This document shows positions 53,404-59,530 of a stretch of DNA of 64,000 nucleotides, piece by piece; the first letter of the stretch is position 1, and each line of letters starts with the position of its first letter. Under the pieces are notes generated by a model, which worked only from the letters and a program-made list of their open reading frames with translations, ran no database searches and was not told the DNA's origin. This DNA is from Mariniflexile maritimum (GTDB lineage Bacteria; Bacteroidota; Bacteroidia; Flavobacteriales; Flavobacteriaceae), in NCBI RefSeq assembly GCF_009746565.1, contig NZ_WRPN01000001.1:496001-560000 (forward strand), given 5' to 3'. The translations under genes and the position numbers were made by a program.

Positions 53404-56340
53404 TTATTCAATAATCGCTTCGTAAATTAAGCGCTGTATTTCTGTTCTAATATTCGATTTCAATAGGGCATTATCTCCTGCATTGGGGTAGGTTCTATTG
53501 GCTAAGAACACATACACGATTTCTTTTTCAGGGTCTGCCCAAGCATAGGTTCCCGTAAAACCTGAGTGCCCAAAACTGCTAAGCGATACACAGCCACAGG
53601 TTGGGCCATCTTCGCCTAACTGTGGTTTATCAAACCCGATGCCCCTTCTGTTGCCTTTTTCACAAAAATAACAGGTATTGAATTTATCGAGTGTTTCTGG
53701 TTTAAAATAGCGTTTTCCACCATAAAAGCCTTTTTGAAGGTACATTTGCATAATTTTAGCAACATCGTTGGCATTGCTGAATATACCTGCATGCCCGCCA
53801 ATACCGTTTTGCATGGCAGCACCCATATCGTGCACATAACCACGAATCTCTTGATGCCTGTAATAATCGTCAATTTCGGTGGGAATAATTTTACTGCTGC
53901 TTATTTTATGGTATGGGTTGTACATAGTATGGTTTGCGCCTAACGATTTATAAAAATGATCTTCAGCAAGAACATCCAATGTTTGGTCGTAATAGTTCTC
54001 AATATATTTCTTTAAAATGTAATAAGGTAAATCGCTATACTTATAGGCAAGCTTATCCAATAGTTTGGAATCTTTGATGATTTTTTGAATGGAATCTTGA
54101 TAATCGGAGCGTAAATATAAATTATTGGCCACTTCAATATTGAATTTTTGGCTACGTTCCTTTCTATAATATTTTTCGCTGGGAAGTTTTGTATCGCCAT
54201 CCAAGGTATGCAAATAGAAAGGTTCCCATGGTTTTAGGCGTGCATAATGCGATAACATGCTTTTTAATGTGATGTTTGCCTTATTTGATTTTTTATAGCT
54301 TGGTAGCATTTGTGAAAGCTTGGTATCTAAACTTACCACCCCTTTTTCTTCCAGTTCCATGAGCAACGGCAAGGTAGCCAGTATTTTGGTAAGGGAAGCT
54401 ACATCGTAAATAGCATCGTCGGTAACCAATTCTTTCCCTTCGTAAGTGGGTTTTCCGAAGTTTTTGCTATAAAACACCTTCCCTTTTCGTGCTATAACCA
54501 ATTGAATACCGGGCGTCATCATACCATCTACGGCCGATTGCGCCATGGCATCTATTTTTTTTAATTTTTCAGAATCCATACCAACACGTTCGGGAATGGT
54601 ATAGCTTAAACGAGCTAAATATTTGGTTGAAATCCCTTCGCCCGCTTTAAAATAGGTACCAATGGAAACGGGCAACACCCCTTTGGCCTCTATGCCGCCA
54701 AAAATAAGTTGTGCCGATTTTTGTTGAGCGATAATACTGTTTTGGTAGCTCACCACAATAGCCTCAATATTTTCAATCGTTGCTAAATCAGAAAGTGCGT
54801 AAGGTTTCACAAACGCATCAAGAATAACGGTGTGCGTTCTGGCTATTTCATATAACCAGGTTAATTCGGTTTCTGTAAATTGGTACGCTTTCCAAGGTGT
54901 TTCGTTGGAATTGTGCAAACCTACAATCACGGTATTATAATCCTGTAATTTCGCCATAAGCTCGTCCAACATGGTCGCTTCAACCACATGTACTTTGGTG
55001 TATTTTTTCAGTTCATCCAAAAAAGCGCTGCCATCATCACTTCCCATCTTAACATAAGCAATGTTTTTTTCTTCCAAATGACTCAAGGGCAATACCTCTT
55101 GTTTGTTTTTTACAACGGTAATGGCATTTTCCAACAGTTCTTCATAAAGGATATTATCTTCCAATCGATTCAAGTCGCCCGACAAATTACTTAAGCCAAC
55201 AGGTTCGTAGCGGTTTAAGCCTACCTTGTATTTTGCTAGTAGAATTTTTTTGACCGAATGTTCCAAACGGGCTTCGGTAATGGTGCCATTGGTGTAGGCA
55301 TCCATGAGTGCGGTAACGCCAACGCCAACATCTTCTGGCATGAGCAGCACATCGTTTCCTGCCTGAAACGCAGCCAAATCGATAGCTCCTTTTTCTTTAA
55401 AATTGGATGCGCCCTTCATGGTTAATGCATCGGTAAAAATCAAACCGTTAAAACCCAATCGTTCCTTTAAAATGGTGGTAACAATTTGTTTTGATAAGGA
55501 AGAAGGATAGCCCGATGGCTCCAAGCTAGGTACGTTTAAATGGGCTACCATTACACTTGAAAGTCCGTGGTTGATTAATTTTTTATATGGATACAATTCA
55601 ACCGAATCAATCCGTTTTTCGTTAAAACTGATGGTTGGCAAGGTTTTATGGGAATCTTGATCGGTATCGCCATGTCCGGGAAAATGTTTCGCACTTGCCA
55701 AAACACCCGCGTTTTGCATGCCTTTCATAAATGCCGCAGCTTTTTCGGTAACATTATCCCTATCTTCCCCAAACGACCGATTGCCAATTATGGGGTTTAA
55801 CGGATTGGTGTTAATATCAACTACCGGGGCAAAGTTAAAATGAACCCCTAGGCGTTTACAGTGTTCACCTATGTGCTTGCCCACGCGTTCAATTAAAGCA
55901 TTGTCCTTTATGGCACCAAGCGTCATGTTCCAAGGGAAGGAGTAGGTAGAATCCAAGCGCATGCCCAAGCCCCATTCCGCATCCATACCAATCAATAACG
56001 GTATTTTAGAAAGTGACTGCAATTCATTATTCAATTTAGCTTGCCTTACTGGGCCACCCAACGAATAAATCAAGCCCCCAATACGGTAATCGCGTATCAA
56101 TTTTACAATTTTATTCTTGGCAATCGTATCTTGATTGGACATAACCTGTACCATGAATAACTGCCCTACCCGTTCTTTTAAAGTCATGGATGCATACACG
56201 CTATCAACCCATTTTTGTTGTGCTTTGGCATCAATAGAAATTAATGGGTTGACTGAAATTTGTGCAAAGGTTGAAAGGCTTGTATATAGAAAAACTACTG
56301 ATAATAGAATTTGACGCATATTTAAGGATGGATTAAGCAA
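53404..56340 (-). CDS. GH3 beta-N-acetylglucosaminidase fused to a beta-lactamase-like serine hydrolase
   Basis: 978 residues. Signal region, then a GH3 catalytic domain (about 40-390) with LKERVGQLFMVQ, LLIGMDAEWGLGMRLD, SAKHFPGHGDTDQDSHKTLP (NagZ-type KHFPGHGDT with the Asp-His pair), VMVAHLNVPSLEP and IFTDALTMKGASN. A GH3 C-terminal-like domain follows (about 410-590). The last about 370 residues are a class C beta-lactamase/DD-peptidase-like domain with SxxK in YDVASLTKILATLP and HSGFTGTYAWADP near the end. Likely exported and acting on peptidoglycan fragments (inference). Usual two-domain fusion in this phylum. Confidence 0.92.
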   Translation of the reverse strand: MLNPSLNMRQILLSVVFLYTSLSTFAQISVNPLISIDAKAQQKWVDSVYASMTLKERVGQLFMVQVMSNQDTIAKNKIVKLIRDYRIGGLIYSLGGPVRQAKLNNELQSLSKIPLLIGMDAEWGLGMRLDSTYSFPWNMTLGAIKDNALIERVGKHIGEHCKRLGVHFNFAPVVDINTNPLNPIIGNRSFGEDRDNVTEKAAAFMKGMQNAGVLASAKHFPGHGDTDQDSHKTLPTISFNEKRIDSVELYPYKKLINHGLSSVMVAHLNVPSLEPSGYPSSLSKQIVTTILKERLGFNGLIFTDALTMKGASNFKEKGAIDLAAFQAGNDVLLMPEDVGVGVTALMDAYTNGTITEARLEHSVKKILLAKYKVGLNRYEPVGLSNLSGDLNRLEDNILYEELLENAITVVKNKQEVLPLSHLEEKNIAYVKMGSDDGSAFLDELKKYTKVHVVEATMLDELMAKLQDYNTVIVGLHNSNETPWKAYQFTETELTWLYEIARTHTVILDAFVKPYALSDLATIENIEAIVVSYQNSIIAQQKSAQLIFGGIEAKGVLPVSIGTYFKAGEGISTKYLARLSYTIPERVGMDSEKLKKIDAMAQSAVDGMMTPGIQLVIARKGKVFYSKNFGKPTYEGKELVTDDAIYDVASLTKILATLPLLMELEEKGVVSLDTKLSQMLPSYKKSNKANITLKSMLSHYARLKPWEPFYLHTLDGDTKLPSEKYYRKERSQKFNIEVANNLYLRSDYQDSIQKIIKDSKLLDKLAYKYSDLPYYILKKYIENYYDQTLDVLAEDHFYKSLGANHTMYNPYHKISSSKIIPTEIDDYYRHQEIRGYVHDMGAAMQNGIGGHAGIFSNANDVAKIMQMYLQKGFYGGKRYFKPETLDKFNTCYFCEKGNRRGIGFDKPQLGEDGPTCGCVSLSSFGHSGFTGTYAWADPEKEIVYVFLANRTYPNAGDNALLKSNIRTEIQRLIYEAIIE

Positions 56341-56436: not shown

Positions 56437-57885
56437 CTAGTTGTCCATAACAAATTTAACACCAGCAGAAACAATATTGGCATTTAACCCGGTGTTGCGT
56501 TTATAGTTATTGTATTTTAAATCGATGCTTTTTAAACCCAGTTTCCAAATGTGCGATTTTGTAAAAATATCGGTATAACCAATGCCGAAACCATATTGAT
56601 TGGCGTTGAATTTAGACAAATCATAATCGGACGTATAATACTGATTTGTGGAAATATTCTCATCAAAAGGCGCAAAATAATCGGCAGCAGTTTGGTTATA
56701 GTACCTATACGTTGGATAAAGGGTGAATTTTGATGAGATTTTAATGGGCAATTCGATACTTGCAGTATGCGATTTTATACCCCAATCGTCAAAATAATAG
56801 CGGTAATAGGTTCGCATGGTAACGACTTCATTGAAATAATAATTAAAGCGCAGGCCAAATGGCATCTTAAATCGCGTATCGGGTAAACGCTCAATATCAT
56901 CAGCCAATTGAAAAACATCTTTATTGTTGGGCGACGTGTAGTTGTTTATACTTGAGGCATTTCCAATAAAATAATTGGCAACATCAGCAAAATACACACG
57001 TTGCATTGGGTTTGAAAGCCAGCCTTTTTGCTGAACCACATCAAAAAACAACGAAACCTGTGCATTTTTATTCAATATTTGTGAAAAACTAAAAGATAGT
57101 GAATAGGAATTTCTACCCTTATTGTCTATAAGTTTAAAACCCGAAATAGGGTTCCAACCTGTACTTGCATTACCATTTTGATCTAAAATTGTGATACCTT
57201 CAAAAAAACCTTGGTTTAAATTACCGTTTACTTCCAGATACGAATCTAACTCGGTTGGGTATTTTGGCATCCATGTGTCCAAATATATTTTTGTATTAAC
57301 ACCTAGTGTAGTGTTTTTTTCATTGAACTGTTTAAGTATGCCACCACCAAAACCCAATGAAAAATAATCATATTCGGTTGCTAATGAAACATCCGCGTTC
57401 CAAACCGTGTTTCTATTATCCGAACTATGGGAATAATCCAAATTCACATTACTCCAAACATCTTGTCGCGAAGCACCAGAAGAAGCCACCCATGGACTTC
57501 CTACAACATTCCCTGCAGCATTTCTGTCATCATCTTCATCGTCGTCATCACCACCACCATTTCGTGAGGCCCCACTAATATCAAACGGGTTTAGGTTACT
57601 TGAAGAAGCCGAGGTGTATGCCGAAATTCCCACATCTATTGTAAGCACATCATCGGCATTTAAAGGCATGCTTATTACAATGGTGGGCGTAAAATCGGAA
57701 AGTTTTTCTGTTCCAATACCACCCGTTACAGAGGCGTTATTTCCATCTTGGGTATAATAGCTTGTTAAAAAATCGACTTCCGTAGTTTCTAAAACACGCT
57801 TTTTAAAAGTGGCTTGGTTTTCTTGAGCAATTCCTAGTGCAGCAAAAAGTAAAATTGGCAAGTATATAAGCTTTTTCATCTTCAT
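56437..57885 (-). CDS. DUF3570 outer-membrane barrel with two SGAS motifs
   Basis: 482 residues. Signal peptide ending LGIAQ, then DUF3570: a predicted large beta-barrel (DFLTSYYTQDGNNASVTGG, alternating strands throughout, C-terminal IVSAGVKFVMDN). Residues 101-140 stand out: FDISGASRNGGG, a run of Asp/Glu, then about 15 residues on VASSGASRQDVW. DxSGAS resembles the D-x-x-S/T-G-A-T/S sites that ApbE flavinylates in other proteins. Last gene of the four-gene operon, 6 bases after DUF4266. Function undescribed as far as I know. Confidence 0.85.
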   Translation of the reverse strand: MKMKKLIYLPILLFAALGIAQENQATFKKRVLETTEVDFLTSYYTQDGNNASVTGGIGTEKLSDFTPTIVISMPLNADDVLTIDVGISAYTSASSSNLNPFDISGASRNGGGDDDDEDDDRNAAGNVVGSPWVASSGASRQDVWSNVNLDYSHSSDNRNTVWNADVSLATEYDYFSLGFGGGILKQFNEKNTTLGVNTKIYLDTWMPKYPTELDSYLEVNGNLNQGFFEGITILDQNGNASTGWNPISGFKLIDNKGRNSYSLSFSFSQILNKNAQVSLFFDVVQQKGWLSNPMQRVYFADVANYFIGNASSINNYTSPNNKDVFQLADDIERLPDTRFKMPFGLRFNYYFNEVVTMRTYYRYYFDDWGIKSHTASIELPIKISSKFTLYPTYRYYNQTAADYFAPFDENISTNQYYTSDYDLSKFNANQYGFGIGYTDIFTKSHIWKLGLKSIDLKYNNYKRNTGLNANIVSAGVKFVMDN

Positions 57886-57891
57886 AATTAT

Positions 57892-58101
57892 TTAATTACA
57901 ACCACAGCCACCGCCAGATTTACCACCATTTGCGCCAGATGCACCTTCGCGATACACTTGGAAATTTGTTTCAAACCGATTGACTTTTTTTTGCGACAAC
58001 ACCATATCGGGGTCGCTCAAATTTACTTTTTCGTATTCTTTAACAGCGGTGCACGATGTAAATGCCATTGCTATAAGAACAAGCATTGTTAACTTTTTCA
58101 T
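57892..58101 (-). CDS. DUF4266 small lipoprotein with GGGCGCN tail
   Basis: 69 residues. Lipoprotein signal with Cys in IAMAFTSCTAVKEYE. The mature peptide (about 53 residues) begins with the family segment VKEYEKVNLSDPDMVLSQ and ends in a flexible Gly-rich tail YREGASGANGGKSGGGCGCN with two Cys. It overlaps the apbE stop by one base (TAATG) and precedes DUF3570 by 6 bases, so coupled translation is likely. The tail could bind metal or be the substrate of the neighbouring thioredoxin or ApbE (inference). Confidence 0.88.
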   Translation of the reverse strand: MKKLTMLVLIAMAFTSCTAVKEYEKVNLSDPDMVLSQKKVNRFETNFQVYREGASGANGGKSGGGCGCN

Positions 58102-59087
58102 TAATCAATAGGTTTTAAATTAATATTTTGGGAGGTATGTAATTTATTATCAGCATCAACAATAACACATTCTACACCTTTAAGTTGGTTTACAAAATCC
58201 AAACCCGTTTCTACACCCATTACAAAAATGGAGGTTGCCAAGGCATCGGCCACTTCGGCGTTTGGCGCAAAAACCGTAGCGCTTAATATGCCAGTACTTG
58301 GGTAACCCGTTCTGGGGTCGATGATATGCGTATATAAAGTACCGTTTAGGGTTACATACTTTTCGTAATTGCCCGAAGTTACTACCGCACTATTATGCAC
58401 CGGTAACCATGAAAAAACCTTGCTTTTATTTAACGGGTTCACTATGGCTACCATCCAATCTTTGCCATCGGGCTGTTTTCCCCATGTGTTCAAATCGCCA
58501 GAAGCATTTATAATACCTGCCACAACCCCTTTTTGCTGTAATAACGCTTTGGCTTTATCGGCTGCATACCCTTTACCAATAGCACCAAAACCAATCTTCA
58601 TACCTGCTAACTTTAGGAAAACAGAATGATTTTCGTCGTTTAGAATAATGTTTTGGTAACCTACTTTTGAAACGGAGTTTTTAATGGCTTCTTCCGAAGG
58701 CATTTCAGTCATGCTACCATCAAAATGCCAAACTTTATCCATTGAAGCGTAACTAATATCAAAAGCACCATTGGTAAGTTTTGATATTTTTAAGGAACGC
58801 TTGATTAATTGGTACAGTTCTTCATCAACAATAATGGGTTTTATTCCACAATTTCTATTGATTTCTAAAGTTTGGGAACGGGCATCCCATGAAGAAATCA
58901 ATTTTTCAATTCTTGCTATTTCATTAACTGCCAAATCTATATACTGATTGCCTTCCGTTTCAGAATTTGCAACCACCGTAATATCAAAACGGCTTCCCAT
59001 AAGTTTCAACGTTCGTTCATAAACGTTTTGAGAAGTGGCAGCAAGTGTCATTAAAATAAGCAGGGCATTACAGATACTTTTTAACAT
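58101..59087 (-). CDS. apbE: ApbE-family FAD:protein FMN transferase
   Basis: Attaches FMN covalently to Thr/Ser of exported redox proteins; 328 residues. Signal peptide (ALLILMTLAATSQ), so periplasmic. Family motifs: LKLMGSRFDITVVAN, FDISYASMDKVWHFDG, KIGFGAIGKGYAADKAKALL, AGIINASGDLNTWGKQ, and the metal-binding HIIDPRTGYPS followed by ADALATSIFVMG. Its start overlaps the thioredoxin stop and its stop overlaps the DUF4266 start, each by one base (TAATG). A client should be in the operon; DUF3570 is the best candidate. Confidence 0.94.
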   Translation of the reverse strand: MLKSICNALLILMTLAATSQNVYERTLKLMGSRFDITVVANSETEGNQYIDLAVNEIARIEKLISSWDARSQTLEINRNCGIKPIIVDEELYQLIKRSLKISKLTNGAFDISYASMDKVWHFDGSMTEMPSEEAIKNSVSKVGYQNIILNDENHSVFLKLAGMKIGFGAIGKGYAADKAKALLQQKGVVAGIINASGDLNTWGKQPDGKDWMVAIVNPLNKSKVFSWLPVHNSAVVTSGNYEKYVTLNGTLYTHIIDPRTGYPSTGILSATVFAPNAEVADALATSIFVMGVETGLDFVNQLKGVECVIVDADNKLHTSQNINLKPID

Positions 59088-59530
59088 TATTTTATAAATG
59101 AAGCTAACTTAGTGTAGTATTGTGTTGGGGTTATTTTTTCGTACCCCATGTTTCCTAGTACTTTTCCGTTTTTATCTAAAACAACCACAAAAGGAAAATA
59201 GCCTTGATTGTTATAAGTTTCGGCAAGTTTTTGGTTCTGTAATTCTAAGTTTGAAGGAAGTTTGTTCGCTTTTTTTCTGGGAAAATCGGCTTTTAGCATT
59301 ACAAAATGATTTTTTGCTAAATCTTGATATTCCTTGGTGTTCCAAATTTCCTTGTCTAATTTCATACAGGGTGCACACCAATCGGAACCTTGAAAAACCA
59401 GCACAATATGTTGGTTGGTTTTTGATGCAACCTGTTTTGCCTCTTCAAAATTTGTGGTCCACTCTTGTGCACCAACAAAAAATGACAAGCTAAAAAATGC
59501 AACGTATAGCAAATAGGCTTTTGTTTTCAA
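59087..59530 (-). CDS. Periplasmic thioredoxin-family protein
   Basis: 147 residues, thioredoxin fold with signal peptide (AFFSLSFFVGAQ). Active site CAPC in VFQGSDWCAPCMKLDKE, the DsbD-gamma/DUF255-like variant; cis-Pro in YFPFVVVLDKNGKVLG. First gene of the ApbE/DUF4266/DUF3570 operon. It may keep the CGC tail of DUF4266 reduced or oxidised, by inference from location. Confidence 0.88.
   Translation of the reverse strand: MKTKAYLLYVAFFSLSFFVGAQEWTTNFEEAKQVASKTNQHIVLVFQGSDWCAPCMKLDKEIWNTKEYQDLAKNHFVMLKADFPRKKANKLPSNLELQNQKLAETYNNQGYFPFVVVLDKNGKVLGNMGYEKITPTQYYTKLASFIK

Follow-up and report, generated by a model that had tools for sequence, protein, structure and literature searches.

Gene clusters that combine ApbE (a flavin adenine dinucleotide (FAD):protein flavin mononucleotide (FMN) transferase), DUF3570, a thioredoxin-like protein and DUF4266 were described by Méheust et al. 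in 2021, with DsbD as a further member and in another 316 clusters without it (main text of PMC8238504). According to the same text, DUF3570 of Chlorobium luteolum is flavinylated by its ApbE, and the modification is lost only when both SGAS sites are mutated; flavinylation was seen on co-expression with ApbE alone, and a signal-less DUF3570, found mostly in the pellet, was still flavinylated. The authors further proposed redox cycling of the DUF4266 CXC motif and recorded the VIT1 iron transporter in 25 DUF3570 clusters. Here we describe an operon of these four genes in a 64,000-nucleotide stretch of the Mariniflexile maritimum genome (contig NZ_WRPN01000001.1, positions 496,001 to 560,000; hereafter, the window), together with predicted structures that place the candidate flavin sites of DUF3570 on the outer face of an outer-membrane barrel.

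The window operon belongs, as a further member, to the DUF3570 flavinylation system that was described in 2021. The two share all four genes, DUF3570 as the (here presumed) ApbE substrate, a DUF4266 lipoprotein ending in CXC, and the DsbD-less form: DUF3570, ApbE, Thioredoxin_7 and a C-terminal CXC (CGCN) are all present, DUF3570 has two [S/T]GA[S/T] motifs (SGAS 104-107 and 136-139), and DsbD, which defines one published subtype, is missing from the operon, a form that the main text of PMC8238504 counts as the same system. Covalent FMN was seen on the Chlorobium homologue (PMC8238504); the window protein would carry it by homology. An initial sequence-only reading had taken the operon for a possible undescribed flavin/metal redox system of the outer membrane. 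The exported flavin system with an outer-membrane barrel stands, but not its novelty, since the work of 2021 (PMC8238504) already reported both the gene set and the flavinylation of DUF3570. New with respect to that work are the predicted barrel topology, the predicted extracellular placement of the sites, a site moved to loop L1, the TSAS/SSAS site form and the fixed-length tail of DUF4266. The main text of PMC8238504, its figures aside, uses neither "barrel" nor "porin" and has "outer membrane" once, for siderophore receptors; the available portions of the later reviews PMC11334425 and PMC12052999 mention neither DUF3570 nor DUF4266, and no literature on a flavinylated barrel was recognised among the matches listed.

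The operon and its features are as follows (aa, amino acids; ORF, open reading frame):
59087..59530, minus strand: exported thioredoxin-like protein (Thioredoxin_7), likely a periplasmic electron donor; 147 aa, TTG start; PF13899 56.7 bits (cut-off 27)
59366..59377, minus strand: thioredoxin active-site motif CAPC (residues 52-55; WCAPC), from sequence
58101..59087, minus strand: exported ApbE (FAD:protein FMN transferase); 328 aa; PF02424 279.7 bits (cut-off 25.6)
57892..58101, minus strand: DUF4266 lipoprotein; 69 aa, lipobox Cys17; PF14086 72.8 bits (cut-off 27)
57895..57906, minus strand: DUF4266 C-terminal CGCN (residues 66-69), proposed redox dithiol; CGCN/CGCG end in 71/72 DUF4266 ORFs
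56437..57885, minus strand: DUF3570, predicted outer-membrane beta-barrel of 16 strands, no Cys; 482 aa; PF12094 144.3 bits (cut-off 25); AlphaFold, and barrels in Foldseek
57466..57612, minus strand: DUF3570 loop L2 (residues 92-140) between strands 3 and 4, predicted extracellular, with ApbE-like sites and an acidic run; AlphaFold secondary structure and motif mapping
57604..57615, minus strand: DUF3570 candidate site 1, TSAS 91-94; A93 and S94 about 98% conserved (weighted, 79 copies)
57565..57576, minus strand: DUF3570 extra SGAS 104-107, in some relatives only; sequence and alignment
57469..57480, minus strand: DUF3570 candidate site 2, SGAS 136-139; A138 and S139 about 75-78% conserved (weighted, 79 copies)

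Pfam scores were judged against the curated cut-offs, and signal sequences by eye. The ORFs, Pfam matches and minus-strand positions agree in every detail with the four adjoining genes first read from the sequence: the thioredoxin/ApbE and ApbE/DUF4266 junctions have one base in common (TAATG), 6 bases (57886-57891) separate DUF4266 from DUF3570, and the mature lipoprotein does have 53 residues (Cys17 to 69) ending in GGGCGCN. A DsbH-like model matched the thioredoxin under its cut-off, no NCBIfam model matched DUF3570, and a search of PDB sequences with the DUF3570 profile returned just two weak, unrelated matches (E 0.28 and 0.31).

A conserved gene set around DUF3570

Among 148 genomes of the window's phylum, evenly drawn but unequally related (20 of the 39 positives belong to one family, f15), DUF3570 is present in 39 and DUF4266 in exactly those 39; ApbE is found in 97, including all 39. 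Because the two DUF families occupy identical genomes and ApbE accompanies them in every one, the gene set is associated beyond chance. The 39 genomes hold 53 DUF3570 copies, and on the same strand DUF4266 lies within 500 bp of 45 of them, thioredoxin within 3 kb of 41, ApbE within 4 kb of 40 and DsbD within 6 kb of 19; three copies have none of the four nearby. The neighbourhood survey proposed in the sequence-only reading thus upholds its expectation that ApbE regularly stands beside DUF3570 and DUF4266: with 40 of the 53 copies near ApbE, and ApbE in 39 of 39 genomes, the families do not mostly occur without it. Outside the phylum DUF3570 sampling is thin, comprising loci L026 and L027 and the Vibrio megaplasmid locus L114.

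Of the 23 Bacteroidota loci L003-L025, 21 have all four genes together; the contigs of the other two, L008 and L015, begin within the block. Flavobacteria have the order thioredoxin-ApbE-DUF4266-DUF3570, and the Chlorobi-lineage genomes usually, as well as the Vibrio megaplasmid, have thioredoxin-DUF4266-DUF3570-ApbE-DsbD. Families f15 and f13 are assigned to the Chlorobi lineage because the FMO antenna protein was found in 5/5 tested f15 and 2/2 tested f13 genomes. In one flavobacterial locus, L013, the block is followed immediately downstream by DsbD_N and DsbD. No further conserved neighbour was found in L003-L027, where the commonest other family reaches 5 of the 25 loci (a search with DsbD's own profile was not made in L003-L025), and no transporter recurs next to the four genes in these loci.

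Neighbouring proteins were sampled with Pfam, not exhaustively, in L004, L007, L013, L020, L026, L027, L070, L078-L080, L091, L094, L108, L111, L112 and L114. Between DUF3570 and ApbE, L078 has an extra NusG_II protein, and L091, L094 and L108 have inserted proteins with Big_5 (bacterial Ig-like) domains. L112 has an outer-membrane barrel-like protein. An eight-heme cytochrome of 872-875 aa lies upstream of DUF3570 in L086, L094, L100, L106, L108 (truncated) and L111.

A predicted barrel with candidate flavin sites in its outer loops

DUF3570 is predicted to be a 16-stranded outer-membrane barrel. The AlphaFold model of the window protein, built with an alignment of 25, has a predicted local distance difference test score (pLDDT) of 80.8, a predicted template modelling score of 0.76 and 16 strands, counted with 387-389 merged with 392-398 and with short strands in loops ignored. 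Its odd loops measure 9, 49, 2, 51, 48, 4, 27 and 4 residues and its even turns 4, 5, 6, 2, 4, 8 and 2, and both chain ends lie on the short-turn side. The model of the Nitrospinota protein of L026 (28% identity) likewise has 16 strands (pLDDT 73.9), with odd loops of 12, 17, 2, 12, 22, 4, 25 and 4 and turns of 4, 3, 3, 2, 4, 4 and 15; L022 (one X) was omitted from both structure alignments, and L013 and L015 also from the second. Outer-membrane barrels normally carry their long loops outside the cell. Since the odd loops are long and the even turns short in two models, the motif-bearing loop is predicted to lie on the extracellular side. With Foldseek, the window model retrieved the outer-membrane barrels FadL, TodX, OmpG and OprD, and the L026 model retrieved porins.

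Conservation and motifs were counted in an alignment of 79 DUF3570 copies. Of the 50 most conserved positions, 41 are on the extracellular side (26 in the strand halves and 15 in the loops), 8 on the periplasmic side (5 in the strand halves and 3 in the turns) and 1 at a terminus. The invariant residues include a YRYYFDDW block in strand 11 (its outer end) and L6. Two fragments were dropped from the alignment: in L115 (7758-9022, on a plasmid of Hymenobacter sp. DG25B), DUF3570 is annotated as two adjacent ORFs, and the gene may be broken or mis-sequenced.

The ApbE-like pattern [ST][GSTA]A[ST] was used, as the strict [S/T]GA[S/T] misses TSAS and SSAS. It matches 172 times in the 79 copies, 155 times in L2, 8 in L1 and 9 elsewhere, so that 163 of the 172 fall in L1 or L2. 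L2 holds two motifs in 52 copies and three in 13; seven copies, all from f15, have one site in L2 and a second in the neighbouring outer loop L1. The Gly of SGAS is often replaced by Ser across copies, and the most conserved site in the window protein is TSAS 91-94, not an SGAS, with SGAS 104-107 a lineage extra. A strict SGAS count was rejected as a finder of the true site 1, which in flavobacteria reads TSAS or SSAS, SGAS 104 being variable. Loci L026 and L027 contain no strict SGAS and no ApbE in the fetched stretch; the idea that the motif is missing where the cluster lacks ApbE was nonetheless rejected, L026 reading SAAS/TTAS and L027 TSAS/TSAS, with ApbE elsewhere in both genomes. In L078 and L079, L2 has three ApbE-like motifs (SAAS, SSAS and SSAS). 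An acidic run lies between the two L2 sites in eight of the 79 copies (DDDDEDDD in the window; also L004-L008, L023 and L025).

The operon ApbE

Identity of the operon ApbE to other Bacteroidota DUF3570-operon ApbEs is 41.5-76%, to those of the Chlorobi lineage 28-34%, and to the second ApbE of its own genome (C33:66080-66901) 28% (E 1.6e-26). The Chlorobi-lineage proteins match it more strongly (E about 1e-43 to 5e-55) than this second ApbE does, and the Vibrio operon ApbE more weakly still. The operon ApbE may serve DUF3570 alone. Besides the second ApbE, the genome has three FMN_bind matches (contigs C12, C33 and C34), from which it follows that the cell has other flavinylated proteins. NqrC/RnfG-type FMN_bind proteins resemble DUF3570 in having ApbE-attached FMN on Ser/Thr but differ from it in fold and membrane.

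A fixed-length lipoprotein tail ending in CGC

DUF4266 ends in CGCN or CGCG in all but one of the 72 ORFs, the remaining one reading CGCAK, and its mature length is 53-56 residues in the 65 that could be scored with a lipobox pattern. None of these 65 has a D/E pair within six residues after the Cys; a signal of this kind directs lipoproteins of Bacteroidetes to the cell surface, according to the portion of PMC5080379 available. Its absence makes a periplasm-facing anchor in the outer membrane likely. By arithmetic (about 3.3 Å per residue), an extended 50-residue tail could span the barrel. There is no conserved [S/T]GA[S/T] in DUF4266, whose tails read SGAN, SGGS and similar. A redox-active Cys pair, as Méheust et al. 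suggest, is simpler than a Cys-bound cofactor.

Proposed electron path

The reading that we favour is a heme-free relay, fed by DsbD, from thioredoxin through the DUF4266 CGC to surface flavins on DUF3570; as a whole, we give it an even chance of being right. The operon ApbE would attach (usually two) covalent FMN groups to DUF3570 in the periplasm, before or during insertion, which would leave the flavins on the first two extracellular loops, L1 and L2. Attachment to an unfolded or uninserted protein fits the flavinylated signal-less DUF3570 of the pellet (PMC8238504), and ApbE also modifies short peptide tags (available portion of PMC12052999). DsbD of the cytoplasmic membrane, encoded elsewhere in this genome, would re-reduce the exported thioredoxin, which in turn would reduce the CGC dithiol at the C-terminus of DUF4266. 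From its lipid anchor, the DUF4266 tail would extend into the barrel and reduce the surface flavins, and these would pass the electrons on to an acceptor outside the cell, which may be ferric iron or some other metal. A role for thioredoxin in barrel disulfides is unlikely because the window DUF3570 has no Cys. The gene set, the barrel, the motif placement and the fixed-length CGC tail are computed; we infer all electron transfer, its outward direction, the reach of the tail to the flavins and the acceptor.

Several observations weigh against this reading. For 13 of the 53 DUF3570 copies, most of them additional copies in family f15 and some lying at contig ends, there is no ApbE within 4 kb; five of the 79 aligned copies have one L2 motif and none in L1, and the DUF3570 proteins of L072 and L073 match no motif although they stand beside ApbE. 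DsbD is outside the window operon, the one DsbD_TM match of the genome lying on another contig, C37. On the structural side, the window and L026 models share most of their alignment, the Foldseek TM-scores are low (about 0.3-0.5) and therefore support the fold class alone, and pLDDT falls below 50 at residues 92-97, 104-124 and 136-140, so that the model does not fix the position of L2 with respect to the pore. The difference in conservation between extracellular and periplasmic strand halves is modest (2.31 versus 1.98, reached in 301 of 10000 strand-flip permutations), and turns (1.90) are better conserved than the loops taken together (1.38), which is expected when loops have variable inserts. 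Sites 1 and 2 of the window protein, like SGAS 104-107, have no Asp where the motif usually has it, and Ser replaces Gly in site 1; in the available portion of PMC12052999, changing the motif Asp to Ala causes a minor loss and Gly to Ala leaves about 50%, Gly to Ser not being covered. On these two figures, use of TSAS 91-94 as a flavin site is plausible.

The same electron path might serve assimilation instead of respiration or electron disposal: flavins at the mouth of the barrel would reduce a metal such as ferric iron, and the reduced ion would enter through the barrel itself. This is unlikely in our judgement, even though the barrel is generic and porin-like: L003-L027 show no recurrent transporter next to the four genes, and the acidic run is lineage-limited. 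Together with the VIT1 genes in 25 published clusters (PMC8238504), that run does favour a metal in some lineages. Electrons might also flow the other way, the flavins taking thiol electrons from DUF4266 and thioredoxin and passing them to oxygen, as an oxidase driving periplasmic disulfides, or electrons entering from outside in the Chlorobi lineage, to which both f15 and f13 belong. We hold this to be quite unlikely. The eight-heme cytochrome stands upstream in six of 32 f15 loci (L082-L113; one truncated) and L079 of f13 has two multiheme ORFs, counts that are lower bounds because stretches of unequal length were fetched. In L111 a monoheme cytochrome and a cupredoxin-like (cupredoxin/CarboxypepD_reg) protein come after the eight-heme cytochrome, which is also flanked by a cytochrome b C-terminal-like protein. 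For Prosthecochloris aestuarii, growth on electrons supplied by an electrode or by Geobacter has been reported (available portion of PMC5227917). Inward flow may therefore operate in the Chlorobi lineage. DsbD, however, normally delivers electrons outward and is present in 19 of the 53 clusters, and no cytochrome with at least two CXXCH motifs lies in the 18 kb around the window operon (L081).

Two further explanations concern the partner proteins. Thioredoxin and DUF4266 might help to attach the flavins or insert the barrel, as assembly factors and not as redox partners in turnover, a role that would suit a small, lipid-anchored protein of fixed length encoded within 500 bp of DUF3570 in 45 of 53 cases. 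We consider this improbable, given a window barrel without Cys and the published flavinylation of DUF3570 by ApbE alone (PMC8238504). The near-invariant CGCN/CGCG end might instead bind a metal or another cofactor, as the sequence-only reading had suggested; its regular pairing with a CxxC thioredoxin, and often with DsbD, fits thiol chemistry better, and we regard cofactor binding as very improbable.

Comparison with heme-based conduits

Known outer-membrane electron conduits rely, to our knowledge, on hemes. DUF3570, a predicted barrel by AlphaFold and Foldseek, resembles the porin-cytochrome conduits (Mtr/Pcc) in that an outer-membrane barrel is proposed to carry electrons across the outer membrane (mentioned in the available portion of PMC5227917), but it would use flavins and thiols instead of hemes and has 16 predicted strands. 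The multiheme cytochrome partner of Mtr/Pcc has no counterpart at the window operon, where no ORF in the surrounding 18 kb carries at least two CXXCH motifs. A broader proposal, which we put forward tentatively and think somewhat doubtful, is that a DsbD/thioredoxin/CGC-tail relay and a porin-like barrel with paired covalent flavins on its outer loops form a heme-free trans-outer-membrane conduit, which would let bacteria that have no multiheme cytochromes in the outer membrane trade electrons with acceptors or donors outside the cell. If covalent flavins do lie outside the cell, iron-free electron exchange across the outer membrane would be possible in 39 of the 148 sampled genomes of the phylum, which include green sulfur bacteria and common Flavobacteriia of the sea, and DUF3570 and DUF4266 gain a testable anatomy: the flavin-bearing Ser, the side that it faces and the thiol that feeds it.

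Neighbouring gene

After the operon, on the same strand (53404-56340), lies a gene for a 978-aa protein with glycosyl hydrolase family 3 and beta-lactamase-family domains.

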